In this document: piece by piece, positions 682 to 36,384 of the stretch
Layout of the letters: each line of letters starts with the position of its first letter
Position numbering within the stretch: position 1 is the stretch's first letter
Virus record (IMG/VR): IMGVR_UViG_3300037071_001703
Coordinates: 1 to 43,907 of that record
DNA from: a virus
Strand: one strand, 5' to 3'
Length of the DNA stretch: 43,907 nucleotides
Notes under the pieces: generated by a model
Seen by the model: the letters and a program-made list of their open reading frames with translations, nothing else
The model's database searches: none
What the model was told of the DNA's origin: nothing
Translations under genes and position numbers: made by a program

Positions 682-1581
682 ATGACTACAGGCCGTGGTG
701 ACTGGATCTACGAGATCGGTGGCCCTCCCGACCGTGGCAACCATCCCAACCGTCAGGTCCACAAGGCCAGATACGTCCCCGGCTCCGACAACGAGCACAC
801 CGAGCAGCTCAAGCTGTTCGTCACGCCCAAAGAGGTCATGGCCAACTATCGGCCTTTGGAAGGCGACCGTGAGGGGAGCGACGACATCGACTCCGAGGTG
901 GAGCGGATCTACGGCTCCGGTACCAACGCCCGGTACAACACCTACGGCTATCCCAACCATGCCAGGAACATGTTCGGGCCTACCGATGAGGCCACCCACC
1001 GCTACACCCGAACCAAACGGGGCCAGATGGAGTCCGACGAGCAGGTCTGGGACCGCAAGGCCACGGAGGCCGACGACCCGTATGGCCGTCAGGGCGCCCT
1101 CAGCGACCGTTGGGGTGGAAGGCGCGGAAGAGGCATGGGTGTGGAGCCTCATCTCACCGAGCGTTCGTACGACACCTTCGGTGAGCGGATGGACATCACC
1201 GAGCAGGACAGGACTGCCTCCAACTACACGCTCCCCGGCCAGACGGACTCGGACTTCGACCCCGAGGAGAACCGGGTACCCCTGTATCGCCACCCCGGCC
1301 GGGAGGGCAAGTTCGGGGGGCATGAGACGCTGGCCCAGAACCTCCGGGCCAGCGGCTACGACTGGTCGCGCTACGACGATGACGACTACAAGTACCCCGT
1401 CCCGCTCCAGTTCGAAAAGGAGGGGGTCGAGGCCGGGAGCCACCTGGGCTACGACAGGCCCCAGGTGCTCGGCGCCCACCACCGGGTCGCCGCGATGAAC
1501 CAGATCAACCCCGACGCCTTCATGCCGGTCGAGTACCACCCCGACTTCTGGTCGGCACACGCCAAGGGGCGCTACAAGTAA
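682..1581 (+). CDS. ParB/sulfiredoxin-fold-like protein, distal member of a phage paralogue family
   Basis: 299 residues. Residues 41-49 read EQLKLFVTP, the motif that starts the family domain in the tandem genes at 12579-16383 (QFKLFVDP, QYKLFVNP, QLQLLINP). Near residue 263 it has GAHHRVAAM followed by a PVEYH strand, the G-x-H-R signature and strand order of ParB-type nuclease/sulfiredoxin folds. The middle is Tyr/Asp/Arg-rich and probably an insertion. It differs from the tandem copies in its longer N terminus and in sitting among tail-region genes 11 kb away. Either it binds DNA or nucleotide, or it is a virion protein sharing this fold. The fold is an inference from motifs. Confidence 0.6.
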   Translation: MTTGRGDWIYEIGGPPDRGNHPNRQVHKARYVPGSDNEHTEQLKLFVTPKEVMANYRPLEGDREGSDDIDSEVERIYGSGTNARYNTYGYPNHARNMFGPTDEATHRYTRTKRGQMESDEQVWDRKATEADDPYGRQGALSDRWGGRRGRGMGVEPHLTERSYDTFGERMDITEQDRTASNYTLPGQTDSDFDPEENRVPLYRHPGREGKFGGHETLAQNLRASGYDWSRYDDDDYKYPVPLQFEKEGVEAGSHLGYDRPQVLGAHHRVAAMNQINPDAFMPVEYHPDFWSAHAKGRYK

Positions 1582-2566: not shown

Positions 2567-3129
2567 CTATCTGCAACGTGTGCATGCTCATACAGAGGTT
2601 CCCCGATGTCACCAAGGGGACGCCGATGGTTCCTGCCCGCCTGGAGTGGACCTCCGGAGAGACGTACACCTACAAGGACGACAAGGGCCATCCGGTGATG
2701 GTCCCGGCCTTCGATCCGGCTGTCGAGGACTTCGTGGAGCGGCACGAGCACGGGATCGATGACAACACCGCCCTGCGCGGATCGATACAGGTGTATGAGG
2801 TCGACCAGAAGACCTGGGACTCCGTCGATGTCGTCACCAAGATCAAAGCCGAGATGCATGAGATGACCGGCAAGTGGTACGAGGACCGCGACACCTACCG
2901 CGAAGGGGCGATCGCCTGCTACAACGAGCACGGCAACCCCGACGCCACGACCGGCTGTCGAGACTACATGGACGACTCCAAGCGCATCGGCCGTGTCCAC
3001 TACCGCGATGACCGGGGCCGGGAGCACACCATCCCCCAGAAGTTCCGCCAGTACCTGTGCTACCAGTGCCCCTACCAGCAGGCGTATATCAACGTCGAGC
3101 TTCGTAAGCGGAAGAAGTTGTATGCCTGA
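2512..3129 (+). CDS. Hypothetical protein with split Cys pairs; start disturbed by the HNH gene
   Basis: The open frame from ATG 2512 gives 205 residues, but its first 14 codons lie inside the HNH gene and ATG 2512 has no ribosome site. A strong AGGAGG at 2540-2545 instead points to codons near 2551-2557 that are not ATG or GTG (GTC, ATC). The conserved body begins IPRIAICNVC. The N-terminal CNVC and C-terminal CYQC pairs could form one zinc knuckle. The middle is acidic and polar. It stops at the TGATG that starts the tail protein. Function unknown; probably tail-associated by position. Confidence 0.65.
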   Translation: MSCLREIPHQEEVVIPRIAICNVCMLIQRFPDVTKGTPMVPARLEWTSGETYTYKDDKGHPVMVPAFDPAVEDFVERHEHGIDDNTALRGSIQVYEVDQKTWDSVDVVTKIKAEMHEMTGKWYEDRDTYREGAIACYNEHGNPDATTGCRDYMDDSKRIGRVHYRDDRGREHTIPQKFRQYLCYQCPYQQAYINVELRKRKKLYA

Positions 3130-8505: not shown

Positions 8506-9373
8506 CCCGAAGGCGCAGTACAACTCAGGCCGGGGCTTCCAAGACATCAACTTCGGTGACTACGTCATCCGCCAGAGGTCGGGCTACCGCACCCAGAGCC
8601 TGTGGCAGGGCCGCTCCAACTTCCTCCAGACCTCGGGCAGCGAGGACCGCTCCATCATGCCCAACACCACGGTCCCCCGTGGCACGGGCAGGGGTGGGCC
8701 GATGGCCCAGGCGGCGTGGAGGTTCGGCAAGGACTACGCCAAGACGAGGCTCGGCGTCCCCGACATCTCGTTGGGTGACTGGGGCAGCGGCGGATACAAG
8801 GTCAGCGACGTGGTGGCGGCGGTGAAGTCCCGCAACGCTGGCACCAACTTCATGTTCAACCAGCCTGTCGGCCCATCCCACGGACCGCTCAAGCCGCCCC
8901 CCGGCTTCGGTCCTCCTGCTGGTCCTGCGGCTGGTCCTGGGCCTGGCCCTGGTCCCCTGCCCAATCCCAGTGCTCTTCCCAAGCCTGTCGGTGTGCCGCC
9001 CCACCCCACGATCGGCCCCATCGGCGGCGGCGGCGCAATCCGTTTCGGTACCCCGACTCCTGGTGGGGCCACTGGCATGCCTCATCCCACGATGGGTCCG
9101 ATCGGTTCGACAGGCCGACCCAGGATTGACATCAACGACCCCCGAGTCCTCGGTGGTGTCAACGCTGCGGTGAAGGCTGGCCAAGCCGTGACTGGTGTCC
9201 TCGGTGGTGAGGGCGCCGTGTCGAAGGCGGCGAGGGCCGGTGTGGCAGCGGCGACAGGTGGTTGGGTGCGCCCGAGTGTCACCAAGGCTGCGGCCCAAGC
9301 TGGTGGGAGGGCTGTCAACGCTGCGGCGGGCAAGGTGGCCAAGACCGCCAACATCGACCCGTTCCGAACCTGA
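8498..9373 (+). CDS. Structural-type protein with Pro/Gly collagen-like segment
   Basis: 291 residues from ATG 8498, which overlaps the previous gene by 8 bases; the longer open frame upstream is a shadow. Residues 1-125 are mixed and likely folded (FQDINFGDYVIRQRSGYR). Residues about 130-160 are almost only Pro, Gly and Ala. HPTIGPIG and HPTMGPIG form a short repeat, and an Ala-rich helical C terminus follows. Position between two probable virion genes suggests a tail or capsid accessory protein. No named family. Confidence 0.65.
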   Translation: MADPKAQYNSGRGFQDINFGDYVIRQRSGYRTQSLWQGRSNFLQTSGSEDRSIMPNTTVPRGTGRGGPMAQAAWRFGKDYAKTRLGVPDISLGDWGSGGYKVSDVVAAVKSRNAGTNFMFNQPVGPSHGPLKPPPGFGPPAGPAAGPGPGPGPLPNPSALPKPVGVPPHPTIGPIGGGGAIRFGTPTPGGATGMPHPTMGPIGSTGRPRIDINDPRVLGGVNAAVKAGQAVTGVLGGEGAVSKAARAGVAAATGGWVRPSVTKAAAQAGGRAVNAAAGKVAKTANIDPFRT

Positions 9374-10740
9374 TGCAGATCTACTTTGCCGGGGCCGAGA
9401 TCTCGTCCCACCTCGCTGTACTGCGGGAATGTGGCGTCGAGCGGGTGGCCGTCTCCATCTCCAACCTGGCCCGCACCGGCACCAACGACCTCGCCACCTG
9501 GGCCACCCACAAGAGGCTCGACGGCTTGGAATGGGTGCTCTACGCCGATGGCCCAGCAGTCCCATCTGGTCCAGTTTTGGAACTGCTCCAGAGTGCCGAG
9601 GTGCAGCCAGAGATCGTCACCGGACCCATAGCGTGGTACGAGAACACCTGGCTGTCGAACACGGATCTTCTGTTCCTGCCCACCTGGGACGCACAAGATC
9701 CGACGATCCTGCGGGACTTCACCGAGAACTACGACGGCGTCACGTTGCCCGACGCCGTCGTAGACAATCCCACCGCCGTGCGCCAGGCCCGCGCCTCGAT
9801 CAACCGCCTGGGCCAGCTTGCCGCCATCACCGGCAGGACCAAAGGACTAGAGAGGTTCGACACGCTGGTCAGTTCGGCCTGGTGGGCCGTCCAGAAGTAC
9901 GGCGAAACACAGGTATGGGCGGGTAACCGGATGGTCCGGATGAACGCCGAGGACAAGCGCCTCAAGCGTGAGCGGTACGCCTCGGCGGTCGAGGAGCTGG
10001 GCTGCGATCCGGGCAAGGTCATCGATGACGACCCGACCGAAACGGTCAAGGTGTCGGTGCTCTCCTGGCTCGCTTTGGAACGCCATCTGGCCCTGGGAAG
10101 GTCCCAACACCCCGTACTAGTTACTAATCCGGACCCCTTGGGCCTCCCAGCAAACGTGGTTCCCCTCACCCCTGGAGTTGCTAAGGCACCACCCCGAACC
10201 CGGCACCACATGCTGCCTGTGATGGCCTCGATGTCCACGACGGTGAAGCAGCTCGATGAGCACGGCAAGGAGATCGACGTTCAGCAGAACACGATCACCG
10301 TGACGCCGATCTCGCTGCGCCAGTGCAACACCTGCGCCCTCGCCATCGCCTGCCCGTCTCATTCCCCAGGCTCTTCGTGCAGCTACGAGATCCCTGTGGA
10401 AATCCAATCGAAGAACCAGCTCACGTCGGTCTTGAGAGCTGTTACCGAGATACAGACCCAAAGAGTCCTGATGGGGAGGTTCGCGGAGGAGATCCAGGGA
10501 GAGCCGAACCCCGATCTGGGCAAGGAGATGGACCGGCTGTTCTCCATGGTCGAGAAGTGGCGGGCCATCGAGGACAACCGGGACACGGTGCGGATGACGT
10601 TGGAGGCCCGAGGCCACGAAGCGGCCAGCATGGGTGTCCTGAGCAGGCTGTTCGGCTCTCAGGTGGGCCAGAACGCCGCCCGTCTGGACACCACCATCGA
10701 CTCCAACGACGTGATCGAAGAGATGAGAGAGGACGACTGA
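9373..10740 (+). CDS. Conserved-looking phage protein with TIM/Rossmann-like N terminus and Cys cluster
   Basis: 455 residues, starting in a TGATG overlap. It opens MQIYFAGAEISSHLAVLREC, a strand-helix pattern typical of an alpha/beta barrel or Rossmann start. Near residue 317 it has CNTCALAIACPSHSPGSSC, a C-x2-C-x5-C-x8-C cluster fit for zinc or an Fe-S site. The C-terminal 130 residues are helical with an IQTQRVLMGRF segment. The mix of a possible enzyme fold and metal cluster is unusual beside structural genes. A packaging or DNA-modifying role cannot be told apart from sequence alone. Confidence 0.65.
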   Translation: MQIYFAGAEISSHLAVLRECGVERVAVSISNLARTGTNDLATWATHKRLDGLEWVLYADGPAVPSGPVLELLQSAEVQPEIVTGPIAWYENTWLSNTDLLFLPTWDAQDPTILRDFTENYDGVTLPDAVVDNPTAVRQARASINRLGQLAAITGRTKGLERFDTLVSSAWWAVQKYGETQVWAGNRMVRMNAEDKRLKRERYASAVEELGCDPGKVIDDDPTETVKVSVLSWLALERHLALGRSQHPVLVTNPDPLGLPANVVPLTPGVAKAPPRTRHHMLPVMASMSTTVKQLDEHGKEIDVQQNTITVTPISLRQCNTCALAIACPSHSPGSSCSYEIPVEIQSKNQLTSVLRAVTEIQTQRVLMGRFAEEIQGEPNPDLGKEMDRLFSMVEKWRAIEDNRDTVRMTLEARGHEAASMGVLSRLFGSQVGQNAARLDTTIDSNDVIEEMREDD

Positions 10741-12312: not shown

Positions 12313-12582
12313 ATGCCCAGTCCCCCGCCTGACCGGGGCAAAGACCCCAAGCGCAGGCCGCAACCCCTGAACCTCGTCCGAGGCGGCGGGATCTGTGACC
12401 CCGGTGAGAAGGCGGGGCACGTCATGAAGGGCAGCTACAAGCCCGCGGTGTGCATGCCCACGGCTGGTTCCGATCCCCGGCCCCGCTGGCGTCAGGCGGG
12501 CAAGATGGGTCAGAAGTCCCGGCACACGCTGCACCACACGCAGCACCGCAAGGGCGGTCGTCCATACGGGAGCACGCAATGA
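12313..12582 (+). CDS. Small basic protein, first gene of the ParB-like operon
   Basis: 89 residues rich in Pro, Arg, Lys, Gly and His, with two Cys (GGGICDPGEK and YKPAVCMPT). It has little hydrophobic core and ends KGGRPYGSTQ in an ATGA overlap with the first ParB-like gene. A CATACC sequence sits five bases before the ATG but no clear -35 is seen. Overlap and shared direction support it as a real gene. Confidence 0.5.
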   Translation: MPSPPPDRGKDPKRRPQPLNLVRGGGICDPGEKAGHVMKGSYKPAVCMPTAGSDPRPRWRQAGKMGQKSRHTLHHTQHRKGGRPYGSTQ

Positions 12583-13142
12583 GCCGACATGTCCTCAACC
12601 CGATGCAGACCGAGGGATACCAGTTCAAGCTGTTCGTGGACCCCGAAGAGCACATGGCCGAGATGAAATCGTCCAGCGATGCATACGGGGGTACGCCCGA
12701 GCACCTCCATCGGACCATGCGCTCCAAGCTCCACGAGGCCCAGTTGCCCAAGGGCATGGCCCACGGTGGTGGCCTCTTCGAAGCCATCCACCATGGTGGC
12801 GAGCAGATCCGCAAGCCCGCCCACGTCATCATCGACCCGGTCAACCGTGGTGAGGAAGACCCCTACGGCCGGGAGGGTCCGATGCAGTGGGAGGGCCACC
12901 ACCGCATCGCTGTCGCCGCCGAGTCACAACGCTTGTCCCGCGCCGAGGGCGTGCAGAACTACCACAAGTACGTGCCCATCCAGTACCACGAAACGGCTGG
13001 TGATGCCATCAAGGCCAGGTACTCGTCGTCCTGGCCCAAGTCGACTCAAGACCCACACCAGACGACCAGCGGCCAGGACTGGATCTCCACGGACTACGAA
13101 GACGACTACGAACCCGATGACGACTGGGAGAGCTACGGATGA
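12579..13142 (+). CDS. ParB/sulfiredoxin-fold-like protein, tandem copy 1
   Basis: 187 residues. Residues 15-22 read QFKLFVDP followed by EEHMAEM. Residues about 65-90 (GGLFEAIHHGGEQIRKPAHV) and 105-112 (EGHHRIAV), followed by KYVPIQYHE, give the helix, strand, G-x-H-R helix and final strand expected of a ParB N-terminal/sulfiredoxin fold. The acidic tail (DYEDDYEPDDDWESYG) is unusual. It starts in ATGA overlap and ends in ATGA overlap with copy 2. ParB-like folds bind nucleotide (CTP or ATP) and DNA, and some cut DNA; activity here is unknown. Confidence 0.65.
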   Translation: MSRHVLNPMQTEGYQFKLFVDPEEHMAEMKSSSDAYGGTPEHLHRTMRSKLHEAQLPKGMAHGGGLFEAIHHGGEQIRKPAHVIIDPVNRGEEDPYGREGPMQWEGHHRIAVAAESQRLSRAEGVQNYHKYVPIQYHETAGDAIKARYSSSWPKSTQDPHQTTSGQDWISTDYEDDYEPDDDWESYG

Positions 13143-13963
13143 GCGCCGCCGATCATCTCCAGCCAGCCCAGCACGACCCCAACCAGTTGTCGTTGTTCGA
13201 CATGCCCGAGTCGGAGGCCCCTGCTGCGGCGGCGCCCCAGGCCAGAGGAGGTGGGCGCAACAGCGGCCCCCACAACAAGGCCGGGAGGTCCGCTCGCAAG
13301 GGTGGGCAGTCACAGCAACAGGTTCGCCCCAACCCGATGATGCAGGAGGGGTACCAGTACAAGCTCTTCGTCAACCCGGAGGAACACCTGGCCGAGATGG
13401 CCGGGTCGACTGATGCCCCTCCCGGTACCTCATGGGCTGCGGTCAGGGCGAACAAGCTGGCCGAGGCCAAGACGCCGAAGAAGGACCCGCAAGGGCGCAT
13501 ATCGAGGTATCCCCGAGGTCATCCGTACGCGGGCGAGCCGGTTCACGGTGCCGGCCTCCACGAAGCCTTGGTGGGCCGGAACGAGCAGGTCGAGGACCCC
13601 CTCCACGTCATCATCAACCCTGCGGCCCACGGCCGTAAGGGTCCGTTGCAGCATGAGGGCAACCACCGCTTGGAAGTCGCCCTGGACAAGCAGAACGCAC
13701 TCAAGGCGCAGGGAGTCGAGAACTATCACCAGTACGTCCCCGTCGAGCACTTCGAAACCGGGTTCGAATCAAAGAAGGCAGCCGACATGAAGGCTGCGGC
13801 CAAGATGGCGAACATGACCACCGGGCCTGGCCTCACGACGCCTGAGTACCGCCCACCTCCGCTCCCGGCCATGAACGCTCTCGACACGCCTGCTTCCGCA
13901 GGGAAGCGGCGGTGGTTGCGGGGTGGACATGAACCGGGGACTTGGAACTCCAAGGCGTACTGA
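13139..13963 (+). CDS. ParB/sulfiredoxin-fold-like protein, tandem copy 2, with QLSLF motif
   Basis: 274 residues. An N-terminal disordered extension carries NQLSLFD (Q16-F20), matching the bacterial sliding-clamp binding consensus QL(S/D)LF. The family domain starts with QYKLFVNP (73-80), very close to copy 1 including the preceding NPM and EGY. Near residue 174 it has EGNHRLEVA in place of GHHR, then QYVPVEHFE. The AGEPVHGAGLHEAL segment matches the HGxG step in copies 3-5. The Asn in the G-x-H-R site is the main deviation. It ends in a TGATG overlap with copy 3. Confidence 0.65.
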   Translation: MSAADHLQPAQHDPNQLSLFDMPESEAPAAAAPQARGGGRNSGPHNKAGRSARKGGQSQQQVRPNPMMQEGYQYKLFVNPEEHLAEMAGSTDAPPGTSWAAVRANKLAEAKTPKKDPQGRISRYPRGHPYAGEPVHGAGLHEALVGRNEQVEDPLHVIINPAAHGRKGPLQHEGNHRLEVALDKQNALKAQGVENYHQYVPVEHFETGFESKKAADMKAAAKMANMTTGPGLTTPEYRPPPLPAMNALDTPASAGKRRWLRGGHEPGTWNSKAY

Positions 13964-14484
13964 TGGGGGCCTGGCACTACCTCAACACCGACCAGTCGGG
14001 CATGTGGGTAGACCCCGAGGAGCACATCCAGAACCTCAGGCACTCCAACGACCAGAAGTACATGGGAATGCCCATGGAACACATGTGGATGGTCAAGGAG
14101 GCCGAGTCGATGGAGCCTGAGGGCACCCGTCATGGTGCTGGCATCTACGACTCACTGATGCGTGGCTCTGACATCCACGAACCCATCGCCCTCCTCCACC
14201 ACGACGATCTGACTACCAGCCCCACCCAGATCGACGGTCACCATCGGGTGGCGGCAGCGGCGGCAGCCCAGCGTGCTCTGGGGCGGCAGATCAGGGTGCC
14301 GGTCGAGTATCTCCACCCTCGATACGGAGCAGATTCGGCCAAGGAGAACATGACGCGGAAGCGTCGGGAAGGGCAGGGAATGGCTGCCAGCATTCCGATG
14401 GACTCGTATCCGGGTATCGATTGGAACAGCCCTGAGCGACCCATGCGCTCTGAGCCTTACGAATGGACCTCAGGGGAGTACTGA
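13963..14484 (+). CDS. ParB/sulfiredoxin-fold-like protein, tandem copy 3
   Basis: 173 residues from ATG 13963 in a TGATG overlap (an in-frame TTG lies 21 bases upstream). The family N motif is degenerate here: DQSGMWVDPEEHIQNL. HGAGIYDSLMRGSDIHEPI and DGHHRVAAAAAAQRA (near residue 90) followed by RVPVEYLHP are the clearest match in the array to a ParB/Srx domain. The C terminus is a polar tail. It ends in TGATG with copy 4. Confidence 0.65.
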   Translation: MGAWHYLNTDQSGMWVDPEEHIQNLRHSNDQKYMGMPMEHMWMVKEAESMEPEGTRHGAGIYDSLMRGSDIHEPIALLHHDDLTTSPTQIDGHHRVAAAAAAQRALGRQIRVPVEYLHPRYGADSAKENMTRKRREGQGMAASIPMDSYPGIDWNSPERPMRSEPYEWTSGEY

Positions 14485-15068
14485 TGAGCGCCCAACACAT
14501 CAACCCCAACCAGTTGCAACTGCTGATCAACCCGACCGAGCACATCGCCCGCATGCACAGCAGCACCGATGCCTACGGCCTCTCCACAGACAGCTACTCC
14601 GACAGCTACGGCGGTAACAACGGCGGCTACGGCGACTACGAGTACGCCCACAATGCCGGGGACAACCCGGCCCCCACCGGGACCATGAGGAAGCTGTGGC
14701 AGGGCAAGGAGGGCGAAGCCTTGGAACCAGAGGGTTCATACGCCCACGGTTCGGGCATGTACGACCTCATCGCCTCTGGTGAGCAGATCCGCAACCCCGT
14801 CCAGGTCAACATGGGCATGCGCCCTGAAACCGACGTGCAGTACGAGGGGCACCACCGGGTGGCCGCAGGCCACGCCGTGCAGCGTGACACCGGCCGAAGC
14901 GTCTGGCTCCCCATCCAGTACAACGAGAACTACCACGTCAGGACAGAGCGGGAGCGCAAGGAGCGGGAGTACACCGCCCACATCGAGAGCATCAAGGCGC
15001 AGCGGGCGCAGCCCCCGACCCCAGATCCGAATCGTCCCAAGCGGTTCTCGGGGATGACCAGTGCCTGA
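14484..15068 (+). CDS. ParB/sulfiredoxin-fold-like protein, tandem copy 4
   Basis: 194 residues. NQLQLLINPTEHIARM stands at residues 9-24. A Tyr/Ser/Gly-rich insertion (about 32-55) is unique to this copy. HGSGMYDLIASGEQIRNPV and EGHHRVAAGHAVQRDTGRS (near 121), then LPIQYNE, match copy 5 closely. The tail is basic and helical. ATG 14484 is used because of the TGATG overlap; an in-frame ATG at 14463 is less likely. Confidence 0.65.
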   Translation: MSAQHINPNQLQLLINPTEHIARMHSSTDAYGLSTDSYSDSYGGNNGGYGDYEYAHNAGDNPAPTGTMRKLWQGKEGEALEPEGSYAHGSGMYDLIASGEQIRNPVQVNMGMRPETDVQYEGHHRVAAGHAVQRDTGRSVWLPIQYNENYHVRTERERKEREYTAHIESIKAQRAQPPTPDPNRPKRFSGMTSA

Positions 15069-16383
15069 CGAACAGCTCTCCCTGTTCGGTGACCTTGGAA
15101 CGAGCCGACACAAGCGGGTGCTCAACCAGCAGCAGACCAGTCCTGTCTCGGATGCTGCCCCGGCCAAACCTGCCTATGACCACAACCAGCTCCAACTGAT
15201 CGTCAACCCCACCGAGCAGGTGGCCCGCACACACAAGAGCACCGACATCGGTGTCCTCGGTGGTCGGGAGCGCAGCTACGGCCTCACTCAGGCTGACATC
15301 GACAAGGTCGGGGCGCCTACCGAGGAGATGCGGAGGGTCGGGGCGGTCAAGGAGTACGAGGCTCGCCAGCCTGTTGACTCCGGACTCCACGGCTCAGGTG
15401 TGGCCGAGATCTTCTCCAGCGGTGATCAGGTCCGCAACCCGATCGAGGAGTGGATCGAGGGCGATGCCCCCGAGGACCGCAGGCAGTACCAGGGCCATCA
15501 CCGGCTGTTTGCCGGCGCCGCTCACGAACGTGACACGGGCCAGCAGGGCAGCATCTGGATGCCCATCAGCTACACCGACAGGTCGCCCAAGCCACCTCCA
15601 CCCGAGAAGGACTTCAAGGGGCGGCGCGTGGGCGCCTGGGCCGACCCCCGGCACACCGATGTGGCCGCAGGGGCTGAGCAGGTGTACGGCGGGCCAGACC
15701 GCAGGGTTGGAACAACCGAGGGATTCCGTTTCGCCAAGGACGTGGATGTAGCCCGCAAGGCCATCGAGCACCGTCAGAAGTTCGCCCGCCCTCGCCTTGA
15801 GGGTGACGTGGAGGTCCTGCAAGGGCGTGCCCGTGCCGGTGACCGACAACAGGCTGACCCCAAGCGTGGCTGGGCCACCAACCGACAGGACGCCATCGCC
15901 GCCGCCGTGATCTACGGCCGGGGCAAGGACGACTCCGACCCTCCCGGCATGCACACGGTGGTCGGTGGGGTGGTCGCTGGGCGCGGTGCCAAAGATGTCA
16001 GGGGTGTCGTCGGTGAACCTCGACCGGCAGGGGGCCGACCCGGTTCGATAGCAAGGAACATGGCGATCATCGCGGGCAATGCCCGCTTCGGTGAGCCTCG
16101 ACCGGCCTTCCAGCCGCCGTTGCCGAGAGGTCGCAGAGCCGAGCCTGCTGGGTCATCGGACATGCCCGGATGGGTCAGGCGACGAGCGCCCGACCCGTTC
16201 AAGGCTGACTCGGCCTTGGAACGGCTGCTCAACGAGGAAGAGTCGATCGCTCGGAAGATGCACCGACCGCCGCCGCCCAATGTCCAACCGGGGACCAACA
16301 CACGTCAGGTCCAGGCTGACTCGATGGCACGGCGGCAGGCCAGACACCAGCATCTCCTGGGAGGTATCGATGGCAAGGGGTGA
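15061..16383 (+). CDS. ParB/sulfiredoxin-fold-like protein, tandem copy 5, with QLSLF motif and long C-terminal extension
   Basis: 440 residues from a GTG overlapping copy 4. EQLSLFGDL at residues 4-12 is a second canonical clamp-type motif. The family motif NQLQLIVNPTEQ follows at 42-53. HGSGVAEIFSSGDQVRNPI and QGHHRLFAGAAHERDTG (near 143), then WMPISYTD, complete the domain. A 260-residue extension follows: an Arg-rich part with HTVVGGVVAGRGA, then a Pro/Arg-rich tail (RRAPDPFKADSALERLL). The extension has no recognised family and may be the working part of this copy. Confidence 0.65.
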   Translation: MPDEQLSLFGDLGTSRHKRVLNQQQTSPVSDAAPAKPAYDHNQLQLIVNPTEQVARTHKSTDIGVLGGRERSYGLTQADIDKVGAPTEEMRRVGAVKEYEARQPVDSGLHGSGVAEIFSSGDQVRNPIEEWIEGDAPEDRRQYQGHHRLFAGAAHERDTGQQGSIWMPISYTDRSPKPPPPEKDFKGRRVGAWADPRHTDVAAGAEQVYGGPDRRVGTTEGFRFAKDVDVARKAIEHRQKFARPRLEGDVEVLQGRARAGDRQQADPKRGWATNRQDAIAAAVIYGRGKDDSDPPGMHTVVGGVVAGRGAKDVRGVVGEPRPAGGRPGSIARNMAIIAGNARFGEPRPAFQPPLPRGRRAEPAGSSDMPGWVRRRAPDPFKADSALERLLNEEESIARKMHRPPPPNVQPGTNTRQVQADSMARRQARHQHLLGGIDGKG

Positions 16384-16717
16384 GAGGACGGAGAACCATC
16401 CGGGCCGGTACGGCGGTCGGGACCGCTTTGAGGCGAACTACCCAACCAAGTCTTCGATGTCGCTCAACACGTATCGACGCAACGAGACTGCGGCCTCCAG
16501 GTCGGTGACGGACTCCAAGATCGGCGCGACGGCCAGGCCGTACGCCTCGACGCCCGAACGACGTAAGGCCAACATCGCCTCTGGTCTGACCGCCCGTGCT
16601 CAGGAGCGCAGCGTGAACGAGCGCGAGGACGAGCTGCATGGTCCTGAGGGCGCCCTCCCGGAACACGTCGTCCGCAAGCAGCGCAACAGAATGCTCAACC
16701 TCTACCCGTTGGGCTGA
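16370..16717 (+). CDS. Small basic protein downstream of the ParB-like array
   Basis: 115 residues. ATG 16370 follows a GGGAGG ribosome site and overlaps copy 5 by 14 bases; the longer frame upstream is a shadow. It is rich in Arg, Ser, Asn and Glu with an ERRKANIASGLTARAQERS helix. It lacks Cys and Trp. Likely an accessory DNA- or virion-associated protein; no family recognised. Confidence 0.6.
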   Translation: MARGERTENHPGRYGGRDRFEANYPTKSSMSLNTYRRNETAASRSVTDSKIGATARPYASTPERRKANIASGLTARAQERSVNEREDELHGPEGALPEHVVRKQRNRMLNLYPLG

Positions 16718-17335: not shown

Positions 17336-19459
17336 TCAGGCCATCTCTGGCAGGACTCGCTCCAGGACCTTGGGGATCATCATCAGATCCTCGATCTGGA
17401 AGGCGTCCTTGAAGCCCATCTGCTCCAGCGCACTGGCGCTGGTGCCGTAGCCGAACCCGATCAGGCGACGGCCTGGCGTTTGGTACGCCATGACCGACCG
17501 CTTGCCGCTGGTCCAGTTGCCGTCCCAGCAGCCGTCCGTCATCACCAGCACCAGATGCTGCTGCTTGTCGAACCGCTGGTTGTCCAGGTCGGCCAGGGCC
17601 ACCGATGGGTCCGTACCACCAGCCGAGTTGAGGATCGGCAGGCCAGGGGCCTGCTCGTTCCCGTCCCACAGCGTGGCAGCCGAGGTGTCCCACAGGGTCA
17701 CCGTGCAGGGGATGCCCAGCCGCTGGCAGGCCAGCTTGGAGGCATACGCCGCCTGGGCCAGCTTCGCCATCGATGTCTGCATCGAGCCGCTGTAGTCGAG
17801 CAGGATCGACACGGCCAGGTTGTACCCCGGCTGATCGTCGTCGGTCCACTGCTTGAAGTACTCGACATCGCCAGCCTGGCGGGTCATGTAGCGGTTGACG
17901 TTGAGCACGCCACGACGCTGCTGTTCGACCCATGCGGGCATGCGGTCCATGGTCATCTCCATGAACGTGTCCTCGATGGCCTGGGCCGCGGCCTCGGCCT
18001 GACCGGCCTTGGCTGCGTCCTGGGAGACGCCGCCGACGTAGACGGGGAGCATCGAGTGCCCCTGGTCCATCGCCTGACGGAACGACTCCACGTCGCCGTC
18101 GAGCGCCGCATCGCTGTCGCGAGCGGCCTCGGCCTCTGCGATGGCCTCATCGATCTGGCTCTGGAAGTCCTTCGCCACATCGTGATTGCCCTCGCCCGAA
18201 CCAGCAGTCGGCTCGGCGTTGGGCTGGCCCTCGTCGGGGCTGTCGCCACCGTCGTCGGTGGGTGAGCCTTCGCCCTCGTCGTCGCCCTCGTCGCCCTCAT
18301 CCTCGGCATCGCCGGGGACAGGAGCGTCCTTGGAGGACTCGTCCTTGGACTCGCCAGGGGTGGAGGCGACCACGTCGCCCTCTTCCTTCTGCTCGTCGTC
18401 CTTGGAGGCTGCGCCCTCACCCTGCTCGCCCGATTCCTCGGACTCGCCCTGGGTGACGTTGGTGGGCACGGGCTGGCTCTCGCCATCCTCGTCGTCGTCG
18501 TCCTCGTTCAGCATGTCGGGGCTGATCGGGACTTCGATCACGTCCTTGCCGTCCCTGTCGTAGCGGTACCGCTGCTGGCCGTGACCCGAGTCGTCCAGGT
18601 CGAACGCCAGGTTGTGGCGTCGGAGCAGAGCCTCCATGACCATGACCGCCTCGACCATGGTCTGCGAATCGGTGGCCGTCACGTACTTCGTGATGGTCGC
18701 CTCAAACGCCGACGCCAGGTCCAGGCCGTCCTCGCCGTGCAGCATGATGAATGCCTGACGAGCGGCCACCCGGATGTGACGGGGCAGGTAGCGCCGCCAG
18801 ATCAGGAGGGGATAGTTGGCAGCCGCCTCGATGGGGTTGGAGGCCAGCTTGGTGAGGATGACCGGCGTGAAGTAGCCCGCCTTGCGGGGGGAGTCCGACA
18901 CGACGGCTGTCTCCATGCGCTGGTCTTCCAGTGCGTTCCACGCCTGGTGGAACTGGGAGGCGTGGAAGTCGGTGACCTGATAGGTCGCCAACAGCCGTTG
19001 CCACGCCTCATCACCCATGCGATTGCGGGTGACGTTGAGGAGGTTGACGTAGGGGGTGGTCCAGCGGACGTGGCCCCCTTCGTGGTACAGCATGCCTCGC
19101 AGGACAGCAGCGGTGAGCCGCACGTCGTTGTCGAGGCCGGGGTACTGGACGGTGATCGACCCGAAGTCGGTCCACGCCGAGAACGGTCCTTGACGGACCG
19201 AGATGGCTGGGGTGACGCCTTCGGAGGCGAGCACACCGGCCACCCGGCGCAGGATGCCGCGGGACACAGCGTTGAACTCAGGCTTGTAGCGGAGTTCGAT
19301 CAGCGACTGAGCCTGCTGGGCCTGGCGCGCATCGTTGACGATGCGCTCGCCCAGTGCGGCCTGCTCACGGTTGAGCCGCTGGCGCTGCTGGTTGAGCAAC
19401 GAGCGACCGGCATCGGTGAGAGCCTTGCGGCGCTGGCGCTTTGCGGGTGCGTTGGACAT
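17336..19459 (-). CDS. CobT-like protein: zincin motif, acidic linker and VWA domain
   Basis: 707 residues; ATG 19459 follows an AAAGGA site. N-terminal half: helical, with YHEGGHVRW where HEGGH (126-130) is a zincin H-E-x-x-H. Residues about 315-470 are a very acidic linker of Asp/Glu/Ser/Gly. The C-terminal domain (about 545-707) is VWA with a full MIDAS: DYSGS (555-559), GGTD (Thr 616) and MTDG (Asp 642). Acidic linker plus VWA is the layout of cobaltochelatase CobT and related phage proteins that work with MoxR/CobS AAA+ partners; that partner gene is divergent at 19650. No CobN or cobalamin genes are present, so a remodelling or protease-like role is likelier than chelation. Confidence 0.8.
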   Translation of the reverse strand: MSNAPAKRQRRKALTDAGRSLLNQQRQRLNREQAALGERIVNDARQAQQAQSLIELRYKPEFNAVSRGILRRVAGVLASEGVTPAISVRQGPFSAWTDFGSITVQYPGLDNDVRLTAAVLRGMLYHEGGHVRWTTPYVNLLNVTRNRMGDEAWQRLLATYQVTDFHASQFHQAWNALEDQRMETAVVSDSPRKAGYFTPVILTKLASNPIEAAANYPLLIWRRYLPRHIRVAARQAFIMLHGEDGLDLASAFEATITKYVTATDSQTMVEAVMVMEALLRRHNLAFDLDDSGHGQQRYRYDRDGKDVIEVPISPDMLNEDDDDEDGESQPVPTNVTQGESEESGEQGEGAASKDDEQKEEGDVVASTPGESKDESSKDAPVPGDAEDEGDEGDDEGEGSPTDDGGDSPDEGQPNAEPTAGSGEGNHDVAKDFQSQIDEAIAEAEAARDSDAALDGDVESFRQAMDQGHSMLPVYVGGVSQDAAKAGQAEAAAQAIEDTFMEMTMDRMPAWVEQQRRGVLNVNRYMTRQAGDVEYFKQWTDDDQPGYNLAVSILLDYSGSMQTSMAKLAQAAYASKLACQRLGIPCTVTLWDTSAATLWDGNEQAPGLPILNSAGGTDPSVALADLDNQRFDKQQHLVLVMTDGCWDGNWTSGKRSVMAYQTPGRRLIGFGYGTSASALEQMGFKDAFQIEDLMMIPKVLERVLPEMA

Positions 19460-19649: not shown

Positions 19650-21029
19650 ATGGCTCTTGCCAACGGCCTGCTCCCAGGTTTCACCTACACCATCACATCC
19701 GGCGCCCTCGCAGGCGAGGAAGTCGTCATCGTGGACAACACACCGTTCCCCGACACCGACGCCACCCGCCGCCGCAAGGTCACCGTCCAGTTCTCAGACG
19801 GCACCCAGGGCTACATCCTGCCCCGCCAGTTGAGCGACATGCCTGTGGGCCAGGTCCCGGCCTTCATGCCCCCGGCGTCAGCCGCCCCGGTCCCCACCGT
19901 GGTCGTCGGCTCCTGGGCACCGCCCACCCAGCCGCTGTCCTCTCTACCTGCGCCGCCCATGCCGCTCAAGGCGCCTGCGACCCTCACGGTCGCGGCCCCC
20001 GGTGGCGTCACGGTCGCTGTCGCTGGTGGTCGGGTGCTCAACCCCATCACCGACCCGATGGACCCCCGCCTGGACCACCTGCGTCCGAACACCGGCCGTG
20101 GCTCCAACGTGTCCAAGTACGTCAACCGGATCATGGCGAACGGCCAGACCGACGTGGAGTTCTTCCTCACGTTCGCCTCCGACGCCTACCGGGCCGAGAA
20201 CAACGCACACCCCATCAACTGCGCCCTCAAGGGTGAGACCCAGGCTGGCAAGACCTTGCTGGTCGAGGTGCTCGCCGTCGAGTGGGCCAAGATGTTGGGC
20301 CTGCCCAAGCCGATGCCGATCTTCACGCTGTCTGGTTCCAGCGGCGTGACCGACTTCGACCTGTTCGGCCAGACCACCAGCTACACCGACCCGGCGACGG
20401 GCATCGAGAGCCTGATCTGGCTTCCGGGCATCGTGGAGCTGGCCGCTCAGTGCGGCGGCATCCTCTACCTGGACGAGATGAACGCCATGGGCGAGAGGGT
20501 GACCTCCAGCCTCCACCCGGTGATCGACCACCGGCACATGTTCATCAACCGGAACAAGCCGGTGTGGAAGGACGGACAGTTCATGCCCGAAGTCGTCTAC
20601 ACCAGCCCCGACACCTGGGTCATCGCGACCTACAACGAGGGGTACCGGGGTATGGGCCAGATGAACGAGGCGTACGCACAGCGTTTCGAGCACATCGTGT
20701 GGGAGTACGACGAGGCTGTCGAGCGCACGCTCGTCAAGTCTCCGACCATCCTCCTGCTCGCCCAGGCCCTGCGCCAGGCCCGCCAGTCGGCCATGGGCAT
20801 CCGCACCCCGTTCGGGACCAGCGCGATGCAGCGGTTCAAGCGCAACGTCGACACGTTCGGACCCGAGATGGCTGCTCAGATCCTGTGCGGCATGTTCCCG
20901 GCCAGCGAGCGTGCGGTGGTCGAGTCGATCCTGACCGACCGCTCGATCATCCTGCTGCTCCAGGAAGAGGAGAAGGCGGCGGCGGCTCACGCTGCGGCCC
21001 TGGCCTCCTCTCAGGACGAGCCGATCTGA
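19650..21029 (+). CDS. MoxR/CobS-like AAA+ ATPase
   Basis: 459 residues. Residues 1-62 look like a small SH3/KOW-type beta domain (EEVVIVDNTPFPDTDATRRR), and 65-115 are a Pro/Ala linker. The AAA+ core has Walker A GETQAGKT (195-202), Walker B ILYLDEMN (271-278), sensor-1 Asn in ATYNEGYRGMGQ (about 329) and AQRFEHIVWEYDE with a likely arginine finger (Arg 345). This matches MoxR/CobS ATPases, which form hexamers that act on a VWA partner; the CobT-like gene is divergently transcribed 190 bp away. The N-terminal beta domain is an extra that may bind the substrate. Confidence 0.85.
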   Translation: MALANGLLPGFTYTITSGALAGEEVVIVDNTPFPDTDATRRRKVTVQFSDGTQGYILPRQLSDMPVGQVPAFMPPASAAPVPTVVVGSWAPPTQPLSSLPAPPMPLKAPATLTVAAPGGVTVAVAGGRVLNPITDPMDPRLDHLRPNTGRGSNVSKYVNRIMANGQTDVEFFLTFASDAYRAENNAHPINCALKGETQAGKTLLVEVLAVEWAKMLGLPKPMPIFTLSGSSGVTDFDLFGQTTSYTDPATGIESLIWLPGIVELAAQCGGILYLDEMNAMGERVTSSLHPVIDHRHMFINRNKPVWKDGQFMPEVVYTSPDTWVIATYNEGYRGMGQMNEAYAQRFEHIVWEYDEAVERTLVKSPTILLLAQALRQARQSAMGIRTPFGTSAMQRFKRNVDTFGPEMAAQILCGMFPASERAVVESILTDRSIILLLQEEEKAAAAHAAALASSQDEPI

Positions 21030-21153: not shown

Positions 21154-21948
21154 GTGTACGCATCAGCAATCGCCCCCAACAGGGCCACGTACAGCTTCAC
21201 GCTGTCCGCTGGCATGATCGCCATCCCCCTGTCGGCCTACACCTCCACCGAGGACACCAAGGTCGTCCGCAAAGAGTTCTTCAACGGTGACGCCTCCATC
21301 CCCCTGGGTCGGGCCGTCATCCGCAAGGACACTGGCGAGGTCGTCCAGCAGTCCGACGTGACTCGCATGGCCCAGGCCAGCAATGGCAACTGGGTCGTCT
21401 TGACCGACGACGAGATGGCCGCGGCCACCACCAAGGGTGTGGCCGAGATCGTCGCCTTCGTCCCGATGGACGAGTTCGACGCCTACCTCACCGAGAACCT
21501 GTACCAAGTGCGGGTCAAGCGTGAGAAGGGCAAGATCAACGTCGCGGCCGAAAAGGCCCTGTCCATCCTGTTCTCCGGGATGCGTGACCGCAAGGTCGGC
21601 GCCCTCGTCAAGCTGGCGATGCGCGGCCCTGCCCGCTACGCCATCCTGACCGTCGAGGGTGACCTGTTCATGGTCCGCTCGGCCGATCAGGTGCGCCAGC
21701 CCCTGCCCCTGTCCGACGTGGCCGTCACGGCTGCCGAGGCGGCTCTGGCGACGGCCCTGATCGACGCCATCGGCATCGACAGCCCCGTCATCACCGACGA
21801 GACAGCCCCCATCATCCAGGCGTTCGTGGATGCCAAGGCCGGTGGTGCTCCCGCACCCGTGGCCCCGGTCATCACGTCCGCACCCGACGACCTGCTGGCA
21901 GCATTCCAGGCCAGCATCGATGCGGCCAAGGCCGCGAAAGCAGCGTGA
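21154..21948 (+). CDS. Ku-like DNA end-binding protein
   Basis: 264 residues from a GTG with an AAAGGA site. The order fits the bacterial Ku core: an N-terminal sheet (YSFTLSAGMIAIPLSAYTST), an acidic extended region with WVVLTDDEMAAA, a FVPMDEFDAYL strand-helix, a YQVRVKREKGK segment, then ALVKLAMRGPARYAIL and a final helical Ala-rich tail. Mycobacteriophages Omega and Corndog are known to encode Ku; there it joins genome ends with a ligase. No ligase is seen in this window, so a host LigD-type ligase or another phage gene may be the partner. Assignment rests on pattern, not alignment. Confidence 0.6.
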   Translation: MYASAIAPNRATYSFTLSAGMIAIPLSAYTSTEDTKVVRKEFFNGDASIPLGRAVIRKDTGEVVQQSDVTRMAQASNGNWVVLTDDEMAAATTKGVAEIVAFVPMDEFDAYLTENLYQVRVKREKGKINVAAEKALSILFSGMRDRKVGALVKLAMRGPARYAILTVEGDLFMVRSADQVRQPLPLSDVAVTAAEAALATALIDAIGIDSPVITDETAPIIQAFVDAKAGGAPAPVAPVITSAPDDLLAAFQASIDAAKAAKAA

Positions 21949-32577: not shown

Positions 32578-32735
32578 TCCAACTCCTCGGGCATCTCCCG
32601 GGCCGTGACGATCACGGCCTCCTGGGCGTCGAACCAACTGGGCAGCTTGGCCTTCAGCTTCCCCTTGGCCTCGTCCTCGTTCTCGGCCTCCACGATCACG
32701 CTGCCCTGGAGGATGTAGCCGACCAGGTACTTCAC
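32574..32735 (-). CDS. Small acidic protein
   Basis: 53 residues from a GTG with a strong GGAGG site and GTGA overlap. KYLVGYILQGSVIVEAENED, then KLKAKLPSWFDA, is a beta-alpha pattern. Function unknown. Confidence 0.6.
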   Translation of the reverse strand: MKYLVGYILQGSVIVEAENEDEAKGKLKAKLPSWFDAQEAVIVTAREMPEELE

Positions 32736-32926
32736 AACCCCTCCTTCTCCAAGGCGAGGAACTTGGTGGTGAACTGTTCGGCCAGGGCGCACTGGCGGGC
32801 CGTCAGGCCCGCGGGGCGGTCGTCGGCGTCTGGTGGCAGGTGTCCGTAGGAGATCAGCATCTTGACGACGGCTCGGCCGTCGCCGTCCGTGTCGATCACT
32901 GAGTCGATCATCTCAGAGAGGTTCAT
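32732..32926 (-). CDS. Small helical protein, head of the reverse cluster
   Basis: 64 residues from ATG 32926. NLSEMIDSVIDTDGDGRAVV is followed by an Ala/Arg/Gln helix. A TACCAT ends six bases before the ATG, but no -35 in the local consensus is seen. It may be leaderless. Confidence 0.6.
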   Translation of the reverse strand: MNLSEMIDSVIDTDGDGRAVVKMLISYGHLPPDADDRPAGLTARQCALAEQFTTKFLALEKEGL

Positions 32927-32979
32927 GGTGACATGGTATCTTCTCTGAGCGACTTGTTGTGATACGTACTGGAGCACTC

Positions 32980-33078
32980 ATGGACTTCCTCGGAACGGAC
33001 GGCGCCCGCGTGCTGGCCGTCACCATCCTGGCCGGTCTGGCCCTCATCGACGTGTTGTGGGAGTGGTTCCGCCGTTAG
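32980..33078 (+). CDS. Possible tiny membrane peptide on the forward strand
   Basis: 32 residues: MDFLGTDGARVLAVTILAGL, then ALIDVLWEWFRR, one hydrophobic helix with a basic end. GGAG stands five bases before ATG. It lies between two reverse genes and overlaps one by 4 bases. The frame and ribosome site are good, but direction against the cluster lowers confidence. Confidence 0.35.
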   Translation: MDFLGTDGARVLAVTILAGLALIDVLWEWFRR

Positions 33079-33236
33079 GCGGGTAACAGGTCGTCGTCTT
33101 CTGGGCACAGCAGGCCCAACCATGTCTCACCGTCGAACGATCCATGTATGCGGCCGTGTGAGGGGGCCTCGCGGTCCTCCACGTCATGGTCCTCCATCCG
33201 GTGACCGCACTGGTCACACACCAGCGGGTCGCTCAT
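33075..33236 (-). CDS. Small zinc-finger-like protein
   Basis: 53 residues: SDPLVCDQCGHRMEDHDVED near the start gives C-x2-C-G-H-x3-H-type ligands; CPEDDDLLPA ends it. ATGA overlap with the mucin-like gene. Probably one zinc; function unknown. Confidence 0.6.
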   Translation of the reverse strand: MSDPLVCDQCGHRMEDHDVEDREAPSHGRIHGSFDGETWLGLLCPEDDDLLPA

Positions 33237-34699
33237 GCCGTGGCGGGGAGGATTCCGGGGCCGATCGGCGGGAACGGACCGTCTGGGTTGGCGCAGGCCG
33301 AACTCTCGGGCGGATACGTGACGAGCACCGGCCCCGCTGTCGGGTTCACCTCAAAGGTCAGGAAGATGCCGTCTCGGAGGAAAGCATCACTCGGGTCTTG
33401 AATCCAGAAGCCGTCGTCAGTGAGAATCCATCCCGGTACGTCGTCAATCGAACCATCGGGATTGACCGAGGTGCCCGGATAGAGAACGTCCACGGTTGCT
33501 CCGGGTTGGTAGACCAGAGGTTGGGTCGAAACCAGATTTCCGTTGATGTCACGCATGGTGAGAGTACCAGTGACACCGGCCAGACTGGGGAAGCCGGGGG
33601 TCTGGAACGTGATCCGGATCACTGGCACCTCACGCACGCAGACCGTGCCCGCCGCCCCGAACGTGAACGTCTCAGGCAGGGTGCTCGTCGTTGTCGATGT
33701 CGATGACGAAGTAGTTGTCGTAGAGGGGGTCGTGGACGACGTGCTCGACGTGGACGTGCTTGGCCCCGATGTCGTCGTTGTAGGGGTAGTTGTCGTCGTA
33801 GTCGTAGACGTGGTGGATGGTGCGACGGTCGTCGTCGTTGAGGACTCGGGGACCGTAGTTGGGGCGACGGTGGTCGACGTACTCGTAGTGGGTGCCGTCG
33901 TCGTCGTGGGTGGTGCGGAGGTGGTAGTGGTCGACGGCGGGACAGTCGTGGTCGTGCTCGGGGCCTGGGTGTCCGGGACGCAGTCCGGGCATGTCGTCGT
34001 TGTCGTGCTCGTTGATGTCGTCACCCCTGTCGTAGACGTGCTTGTAGGCGGCACGGTGGAGGTCGTCGTAGAGGGAGCGGTAGTCGATGTAGTCGATGTC
34101 GTCGTTGTACCCGTTTGCGGCAGGCACTCCGACACGCTCGGCTCAGGCTGGCCCACATCGAAGGCGATGACCAATGAGCGGCCCTGGGCGTCAGCGAAGA
34201 ACTCCCCGATGGTCCCTGACCAGTTGGGGATCGCGTTGACGCTGACCGAGATCGGGTTCTGGCCGGTCTGGAGCCGCTCGTCAACCCCCGGCGTCCCCAC
34301 GAACTTGCAGACGAAGACCTTCTTCGGCGCCTCCGTCGTCGTGGTGGTCGGAATAGTGGTCGAGGTCGTAGTCGTGGTACCTGGGAGGGTGGTAGTCGTC
34401 ACCCCTTGGGGTGTCGTCCCCACCACCGTCGTGGTCCCCACCTCGGTCGTCGTAGTTGTCGAGGGGGATGTCGACATAGTCGTGGAAGACGTGGGTGACG
34501 ATGTCGTAGTAGGTGTGGTTGTAGATGTGGAGGTACCGCTCGTTGTTGATGTCGCCGCCCCTGTCGTCGTCGTGTAGGCCCGATGCGTGGTCGTGGTGGT
34601 GCCATAGCTCCCGCCACCCTCAGCCCCAACAGCAGTCGCGATGACGACTCCCAACGTGAGTGCTGTTGCTAGCGCTGCGGTGAACTTGGCCACCCGCAT
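33233..34699 (-). CDS. Secreted or surface mucin-like Thr/Ser-rich protein
   Basis: 488 residues, GGAGG site before the ATG. A signal peptide (AALATALTLGVVIATAVGA) leads to a Thr/Ser stalk, a folded domain near 127-198 (KKVFVCKFVGTPGVDERLQ; SVSECLP; two Cys), a longer second Thr/Ser/Pro stalk, then a C-terminal domain of about 145 residues (TVCVREVPVIRITFQ; VNPTAGPVLVTYP). Such stalks are O-glycosylated wall or surface proteins in actinobacteria, notably in Acidimicrobiia-type genomes. In a phage it may coat the infected cell, alter adsorption, or be a virion decoration. No cell-wall sorting signal is seen at the end. Confidence 0.7.
   Translation of the reverse strand: MRVAKFTAALATALTLGVVIATAVGAEGGGSYGTTTTTHRAYTTTTGAATSTTSGTSTSTTTPTTTSSPTSSTTMSTSPSTTTTTEVGTTTVVGTTPQGVTTTTLPGTTTTTSTTIPTTTTTEAPKKVFVCKFVGTPGVDERLQTGQNPISVSVNAIPNWSGTIGEFFADAQGRSLVIAFDVGQPEPSVSECLPQTGTTTTSTTSTTAPSTTTSTVPPTSTSTTGVTTSTSTTTTTCPDCVPDTQAPSTTTTVPPSTTTTSAPPTTTTAPTTSTSTTVAPTTVPESSTTTTVAPSTTSTTTTTTTPTTTTSGPSTSTSSTSSTTPSTTTTSSSTSTTTSTLPETFTFGAAGTVCVREVPVIRITFQTPGFPSLAGVTGTLTMRDINGNLVSTQPLVYQPGATVDVLYPGTSVNPDGSIDDVPGWILTDDGFWIQDPSDAFLRDGIFLTFEVNPTAGPVLVTYPPESSACANPDGPFPPIGPGILPATA
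33680..34560. repeat. Low-complexity Thr/Ser codon repeats
   Basis: On the reverse strand the DNA repeats ACN/TCN codons (forward GTCGTCGT-type) in two blocks, about 33680-34130 and 34325-34590, encoding the two stalks. Such tracts can expand or shrink by slippage. Confidence 0.7.
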
Positions 34700-34757
34700 C
34701 TCCGCCTCCTACCTGTGTTGTGAAAGTCGGAACCCTAGCAGAAATCACCTGCAAAGG

Positions 34758-34786
34758 GTGTGGTATCTCTTGCAGTGTGGTAGTAT
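34758..34786 (+). promoter_or_regulatory. Leaderless promoter of the zinc-finger gene
   Basis: GTGTGG, 17 bases, TAGTAT, then six bases and ATG 34793. The -35 differs from TTGTGG by one base. Confidence 0.5.
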
Positions 34787-34792
34787 GTCAAC

Positions 34793-35899: not shown

Positions 35900-35905
35900 G
35901 ATACT

Positions 35906-36097
35906 GTGAAGCTCATGCCCCAATTGCCCGTCACCCAACTGGTGGACATCAACGCCCCTATCGATGACATCCAGGCTGCCAGCCTGGAACAGATCCGGGC
36001 CATCCGTCGATACGTCGACCGGGCCAAGGACTACGTGGCAATGTGGCAGCCCCGTCCCATGCCTGCCGACTTCGAACGAGAGGACCCCCGATCATGA
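35906..36097 (+). CDS. Small protein
   Basis: 63 residues from GTG 35906 (ATG 35915 would remove three). It is helical in the middle (AASLEQIRAIRRYVDRAKDY). ATGA overlap with the next gene. Confidence 0.55.
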   Translation: MKLMPQLPVTQLVDINAPIDDIQAASLEQIRAIRRYVDRAKDYVAMWQPRPMPADFEREDPRS

Positions 36098-36384
36098 CCG
36101 AGCCGATCCGTGACGACAAGTACATCGTGTTCCACCGTGACGAGTTCCTGGAGCACCTGGGCAACGCCTCAGGGTTCCAACATCTCGTTGTCAAGGACGC
36201 TGTGGTGATCAGGCGCCAGGACAAGATCGCCTCCCCCGCCCTGGCCACCTACGCCAGCATGATCGCCATCGCCGCCAGCCTCACCACCGACGAGGAGGCC
36301 CGTAAGGGCCTCCTCAAGGTGGCCGACTATTTCGAGGACCAGGCCAGGGCCGCGGCTGATGAAGGCCACAAGCTCCCAGACTGA
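36094..36384 (+). CDS. Small hypothetical protein
   Basis: 96 residues; the upstream extension is a shadow of the previous gene. YIVFHRDEFLEHLGNASGFQ, then a helical part (ATYASMIAIAASLTTDEEAR). Ends three bases before a new promoter. Confidence 0.6.
   Translation: MTEPIRDDKYIVFHRDEFLEHLGNASGFQHLVVKDAVVIRRQDKIASPALATYASMIAIAASLTTDEEARKGLLKVADYFEDQARAAADEGHKLPD

Follow-up and report, generated by a model that had tools for sequence, protein, structure and literature searches.

The question raised by a locus at positions 12579-16383 of a 43,907-nt fragment of an uncultured virus (IMG/VR record IMGVR_UViG_3300037071_001703, positions 1-43,907, hereafter the window) is why a phage should keep five consecutive copies of one small protein fold. 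The first-pass annotation had described five adjacent, coupled genes for ParB/sulfiredoxin (Srx)-like proteins with a sixth copy at 682, and had suggested a phage family built on this fold that might act on DNA, on nucleotides or as ejected proteins. The observation is confirmed with corrections and its interpretation is partly supported. We find that a single soil virus keeps at least seven diverged ParB/Srx-fold paralogues, five of them consecutive, and that the QxxLF motif preceding the domain looks like a short linear motif common to many unrelated proteins of the same phage clade rather than a private element of the fold.

A tandem array of ParB/Srx-fold genes

The array consists of five plus-strand open reading frames (ORFs) lying head to tail, with neighbours overlapping by 1-8 nt (ATGA, TGATG, GTGCCTGA) in the pattern expected of translational coupling and with a third-position GC content of 0.76-0.86. 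All-against-all comparison with phmmer related all ten pairs of the products p1-p5 (E 3e-4 to 2e-34), as the first-pass annotation had proposed.

12579..13142, + strand: copy 1 (p1), 187 aa, ParB/Srx-fold; phmmer match to p2 at 2e-34, also matched by the family profile
13139..13963, + strand: copy 2 (p2), 274 aa; extra N-terminal QLSLF, core QYKLF, GNHR
13963..14484, + strand: copy 3 (p3), 173 aa; motif variant QSGMW; orthologue at L003:9986-10423 (support 0.99)
14484..15068, + strand: copy 4 (p4), 194 aa; AlphaFold2 model, pLDDT 82.8
15061..16383, + strand: copy 5 (p5), 440 aa, GTG start; ParB/Srx domain at about 40-175 and a C-terminal extension
682..1581, + strand: remote sixth copy (g0), 299 aa, with a long insert; adjoins a homologue of LuckySocke gp183 (2584-3129)
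12313..12582, + strand: 89-aa ORF overlapping the start of copy 1, a possible first gene of the operon
16370..16717, + strand: 115-aa ORF overlapping the end of copy 5

The C-terminal extension of p5 has no family match in Pfam or PHROGs. The 682 gene gave pairwise phmmer E-values of only 0.001-0.15 against p1-p5 and entered the family in an iterated profile (1e-19 to 1e-26), which places it as a remote member. A seventh copy lies on the viral contig G010 (also L011, L141 and L144), between homologues of gp82 and gp83 (L141:2230-2829). Over 11,230 bp (window 32675-43904) the sequences of G010 and the window agree at 100% identity, for which reason we take the two as one virus, and G010 extends beyond the right end of the window into portal, scaffold and capsid genes.

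Fold and superfamily membership

Two independent AlphaFold2 and Foldseek runs bear out the proposed fold. The model of p4, built from a 38-row alignment, had a mean predicted local distance difference test score (pLDDT) of 82.8, and its first 41 matches in the PDB all belong to the ParB/Srx superfamily (best single E 0.09). A minimal 113-aa relative (pLDDT 85.9, predicted template modelling score 0.78) gave the same picture, with all 50 listed matches in the superfamily (probability 1.00, E 0.016). The matches include sulfiredoxin, SbnI, SerK, KorB, PadC, Noc, ParB and Spo0J, and among viral models (BFVD) the best was a phage 'ParB/Sulfiredoxin' (4.5e-8). Despite single PDB E-values of 0.02-0.1 we accept the assignment because the matches are unanimous, and regard this agreement of the predicted models as decisive. 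None of the six window proteins matched Pfam (including ParB_N, PF02195), NCBIfam or PADLOC, and PHROGs returned sub-threshold matches only; their relatives have weak, ParB-like PHROG matches (phrog_21912 at 2.7e-6, phrog_4715 at about 1e-3). The family is a new, multi-copy branch of an already known fold and is absent from the family libraries searched.

The fold binds CTP, ATP or GTP, with GxxR as the phosphate motif, and short single-domain versions are known in phages (PNAS 2025 survey, PMC12704722). This Box II motif is present here as GxHR, and on the strength of the fold the family would bind a nucleoside phosphate through it. The window proteins resemble the short phage members in fold, in the Box I helix-loop (SIxxxGxxxP), in Box II (GxxR/GxHR) and in being free-standing, but differ in an extra helix with an invariant Lys, in a putative N-terminal docking motif and in occurring in up to five tandem copies. 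With the serine kinases SerK and SbnI, which are among the fold matches, they share the GHHR motif and the Box I/Box II region; alignment of the family with SerK by hhalign (P 3e-5 over 40 columns, using a SerK stretch checked against PDB 1vk1 and 5x0b) brings Box I and Box II into register. The SerK-specific C-terminal domain is lacking, and the 40-column alignment stops short of the near-invariant E19, which follows strand 1 (the catalytic Glu of SerK being E30). Two better-known identities were ruled out. Sulfiredoxin activity is excluded by the absence of the catalytic Cys, as all six window proteins are devoid of Cys and have His or Asn where G-G-C-H-R has it. A canonical ParB segregation CTPase, marked by a central helix-turn-helix and a C-terminal dimer domain, is excluded since the copies are 173-194 aa long and have no helix-turn-helix family match in profile searches, the element having been looked for by family profiles rather than by structure.

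Conserved residues and the age of the array

Among the relatives, the Q of QxxLF is kept in 36 of 37 rows, E19 is Glu in 35 and Asp in three of 38, the Lys in the helix after E19 is present in 38/38 and the HR of GxHR likewise in 38/38, so that in p4 numbering the invariant or nearly invariant residues are Q10, F14, E19, K75 and H124-R125. That a family this divergent has retained such an E, K, H and R set suggests a genuine site for catalysis or binding. The elements are located as follows.

12621..12635, + strand: QFKLF motif, copy 1
13184..13198, + strand: extra exact QLSLF (DPNQLSLF), copy 2
13355..13369, + strand: core QYKLF, copy 2
13993..14007, + strand: QSGMW variant, copy 3
14511..14525, + strand: QLQLL, copy 4
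15073..15087, + strand: extra exact QLSLF, copy 5, present if the GTG at 15061 is the start
15187..15201, + strand: core QLQLI, copy 5
805..819, + strand: QLKLF, 682 gene
12894..12905, + strand: GHHR (phosphate-binding P motif, GxxR), copy 1
13658..13669, + strand: GNHR, copy 2
14236..14247, + strand: GHHR, copy 3
14847..14858, + strand: GHHR, copy 4
15493..15504, + strand: GHHR, copy 5

Several details of the first-pass annotation change in this wider comparison. The HGxG step that it gave as a shared feature is missing from the 682 gene and does not extend to the whole family, G89 of the step being present in 20 of 37 rows. The GNHR of copy 2, read there as an altered active-site-like residue, is ordinary variation, as the x of GxHR may be H, N, Q, M or Y, and an altered active site in copy 2 was ruled out on this ground. 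Copy 3 does deviate in its motif (QSGMW), as noted, but is not degenerate: its DQSGMWVDP is matched by DQTGIYVDP in the L003 orthologue and is a conserved variant.

In a FastTree tree of 40 cores, several deep nodes of which are weak, p1 pairs with p2 (0.97), p4 with p5 (0.95) and p3 with its L003 orthologue (0.99), and copies of L003 and of L001/L002 also fall in the array clade. The 682 gene clusters with copies from L110 and L117 that also lie near gp183, and the gp82/gp83 copies cluster together. By this tree the array does not reflect recent amplification; it is the product of old duplications whose members are separately conserved, and for that reason the copies probably have different targets. 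The earlier view that the copies are specialised fits these old lineages.

Distribution and genome positions

Of 45 related uncultured viral records, 22 proved by profile search to encode the family, each in one or several copies (two rows of this copy table may represent one protein), and copy number per virus ranges from 0 to at least 7, with three tandem copies in L003/L139 and in L135; the suggestion of a phage family built on this fold was right. Searches with tblastn of 50,697 phage records gave no match for p4, p1 or the L029 relative and weak matches only for that of L117, including a Microbacterium 'ParB-like' protein at E 0.2. Scans of viral contigs with single proteins missed relatives that alignment A2 recovered, and one contig of a cellular collection (3.2 kb, in a Kiritimatiellia metagenome-assembled genome bin and possibly viral) holds a relative. 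The terminase of the window (39576-41156) shares 46-47% identity with its counterparts in the Streptomyces phages LuckySocke, Alone3, pSt2308, GiJojo and BRock, which have genomes of about 112-116 kb and of which LuckySocke has a tail sheath gene; the phage clade of the window is uncultured and probably actinobacterial.

Three positions recur. One immediately precedes the portal gene; a second separates the gp82 and gp83 homologues, before the tail genes; and the third, close to the lysis region, is either next to the gp183 homologue or downstream of the gp189 homologue. The window array follows its gp189 homologue (9373-10740) and the 682 gene stands beside gp183, while a few copies lie elsewhere, such as upstream of the terminase. 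The copies between gp82 and gp83 homologues in L111, L112, L113 and L121 have a common insert with DR-[ML]-[YW]-HGT, and some additionally carry DPRAGE-x-T-x-R-x-x-RTD.

A QxxLF motif shared with unrelated proteins

We searched 1158 non-redundant called proteins of the window and related loci for the motif. The loose form Q[LMFYGPIV]x[LM]F occurred 58 times compared with 11.7 in shuffles, 28 times within the first 40 residues (1.95 in shuffles) and 11 times at the C-terminus (0.15 in shuffles), counts which include the ParB family itself and a tail-tube strand. The stricter P-x-Q-x-x-[LM]-F gave 31 matches in 12 non-homologous clusters against 1.8 (maximum 5) in shuffles, clusters being sets not linked by BLAST at 1e-4; remote homology between some of them is possible. 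When N, E or K replaced the Q, V replaced the F, or the spacing was changed, cluster numbers were near background, and 15 ORFs end exactly in Q..[LM]F compared with 0-3 when the Q was exchanged for any of nine other residues. That the pattern was discovered and tested on one sample is a weakness of these counts. The C-terminal form DPxQGTLF, sought in 2.9 million viral contigs, turned up in seven stretches, namely the known ones and three new contigs, all of which carry LuckySocke-like portal genes (51-55% identity). The searched ORFs of LuckySocke, Rhodococcus phage E3 and Mycobacterium phage Wally (about 113,000 aa, part double-counted) contained three loose matches, none with the Pro, and two strict DNA patterns for the tag found no matches. 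As the motif is shared with at least 11 unrelated protein clusters of the clade, we read it as a common docking tag; the first-pass annotation had taken it for an element of the shared domain.

Besides the ParB/Srx family the carriers include DUF7178 proteins (L001, L039) and phrog_3170 proteins (L001, L035), with the tag at the C-terminus. A homologue of phrog_3170 with its 'FRAVHDxFGH' domain is gp205 of phage E3 (L145:43367-45943), annotated 'structural protein', the C-terminal half of which resembles DUF7178 by eye; gp205 thus fuses parts that phage Wally encodes as two neighbours, genes 104 and 105. Should proteomics underlie the E3 annotation, the DUF7178/phrog_3170 part of the tagged set is tied to virions. 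A DUF7178 protein is also encoded in the window (42614-43528, + strand), where it lacks the QxxLF tail of its L001 and L039 homologues. One contig (L031:3083-4689, - strand; L198:2988-3746, + strand) encodes three tagged proteins ending in DPxQGTLF, two of which are adjacent related paralogues, each with an internal Q-x-x-LF; a second tagged family therefore also expands in tandem. An ADP-ribosyltransferase reading of the tagged protein L037:16365-17198, made by eye only, gained no support.

Candidate partners of the tagged proteins

Our preferred explanation, which we hold tentatively and at less than even probability, is that the array encodes small, late-expressed accessory proteins that dock on a virion component by their tag and act early after ejection. 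In each, a [DNH]-P-x-Q-[LMG]-x-[LM]-F docking motif would precede a ParB/Srx-fold domain that binds a nucleoside phosphate via GxHR. Because unrelated proteins of the clade carry the same motif at their N- or C-terminus, it is probable that a number of accessory proteins have one docking partner in common; were this a component of the virion, tagged proteins would be loaded into or onto the head and, once ejected, could serve as nucleotide-regulated effectors on DNA or nucleotides. A capsid-targeting tag is found in the internal proteins of phage T4. The DdrB and DarB proteins of phage P1 are head proteins, DarB with an N-terminal capsid-targeting sequence (PMC9024508, PMC5512222). The window family resembles the P1 Dar head proteins and polyvalent proteins in its ParB/Srx domain (as in DdrB) and late-gene context, the Dar set likewise comprising accessory proteins, one of which has a short targeting sequence. 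Here, however, the domains are separate small proteins with a common tag and without metallopeptidase or effector fusions, and such separate polypeptides might do the work of the Dar proteins or of the large polyvalent proteins of other phages. The late-gene positions and the link to the E3 structural protein lean towards virion association. It is possible, if rather doubtful, that the clade gives one P-x-Q-x-x-[LM]-F address tag to a large set of unrelated accessory proteins (ParB/Srx, DUF7178, phrog_3170 and others) for joint delivery, which would be the modular equivalent of polyvalent proteins. Most phage accessory proteins are without annotation, and a shared tag of this kind, if true, would link many uncharacterised proteins to one partner and one infection stage by sequence alone and would be a simple means of finding further members, beyond the multi-copy branch that the family adds to the nucleoside triphosphate-binding ParB/Srx fold.

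Several points weigh against this explanation. The uncultured phages of the clade are known from genes alone, most of the other carriers have no recognisable domain, the 'structural' status of E3 gp205 is taken from an annotation label, and the residues of QxxLF just before strand 1 are predicted to be ordered (pLDDT about 94) in the fold models, so that within the ParB/Srx family the motif may also serve the fold. The tag moreover fits the motif by which proteins bind the bacterial sliding clamp DnaN at least as well as it fits a packaging signal. The clamp motif is Q-phi-x-[L/M]-[F/L], with QL[S/D]LF as its best form, and is found at C-termini (Pol II, Pol IV), in disordered N-termini (Hda) and in loops (PMC11139829). 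Copies 1, 2, 4, 5 and g0 match it or nearly so, copy 3 having QSGMW; some ORFs terminate exactly in QLSLF, QLRLF, QMALF or QMKLF, preceded by basic tails; and copies 2 and 5 have an exact QLSLF ahead of the domain, additional to the core motif and in linkers, unlike the core motif, which is predicted to be ordered and may for that reason be poorly accessible. The ParB/Srx proteins and other carriers might therefore ride the clamp of the host, which would be the target since no phage-encoded clamp was detected in 17 related records. They could work there on intermediates of phage replication or packaging or, were they ejected, target the host replisome to attack or capture it. We consider this unlikely, though it must be taken seriously. 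In favour of the clamp is QLSLF in its exact form, present at C-termini and at the N-termini of copies 2 and 5. In favour of a virion component are Gly, common at position 2 (QGTLF, QGQLF) and detrimental to clamp binding (PMC11139829), and the conserved Pro two residues before the Q, which lies outside the clamp motif. Unlike clamp ligands, the carriers are late-region proteins rather than polymerases or repair proteins, and the tag is absent from their cultured relatives. No tagged protein falls in the DnaB-to-Cas4 replication blocks, which speaks against the clamp without being significant (0/80 against 11/712 other proteins, p = 0.61); by the same figures a confinement of the tag to late genes is suggestive only and not statistically supported. 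The two partners are compatible, since a protein once ejected might bind the clamp of the newly infected host, and if the tag also binds DnaN the ejected effectors would home on the host replication fork.

The copies may instead be nucleoside triphosphate-dependent switches or nucleases that work inside the infected cell in DNA packaging, partition or late transcription and have nothing to do with the virion or the clamp; QxxLF would then belong to the fold and the tags elsewhere would be a separate matter. ParB/Srx domains do bind CTP, ATP or GTP and occur as short phage versions (PMC12704722), the motif abuts strand 1 in a predicted ordered region, and copies flank the portal and terminase. 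The near-invariant Q nevertheless lies outside the strand, P-x-Q-x-x-[LM]-F recurs in 11 other non-homologous clusters and the linkers of several members contain the motif once more, as a separate copy, all of which makes this improbable. Still less credence goes to the idea that the gene is selfish or moron-like, moves from one phage locus to another in the manner of free-standing homing endonucleases and leaves the array as a by-product. Such a gene would account for copies at several intergenic sites and for 0 to at least 7 of them per virus, and ParB/Srx domains can be nucleases (PMC5512222), but positions recur, copies tend to group by position in the tree and the array has an orthologous pair, all of which points to vertical, functional retention.

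Other features of the window

The gp189 homologue at 9373-10740 (+ strand) is also a homologue of phrog_887 (phage queuine tRNA-ribosyltransferase-like; 5e-23), and its product is possibly a DpdA-type DNA deazaguanine transglycosylase. Downstream of the array, a 707-aa protein of VWA/CobT type by eye (17336-19459, - strand) diverges from an AAA_5 ATPase resembling CobS/MoxR (19650-21029, + strand; Pfam 9.5e-10), and a Ku-like protein (21154-21948; Pfam Ku, 3e-14) adjoins this divergent pair. Two plus-strand ORFs at 2057-2566 and 41186-41728 appear by eye to encode homing endonucleases of HNH/AP2 type, the latter directly after the terminase gene. The region 33233-34700 is of low complexity, rich in Asp, His and Tyr when translated on one strand and in Val on the other.

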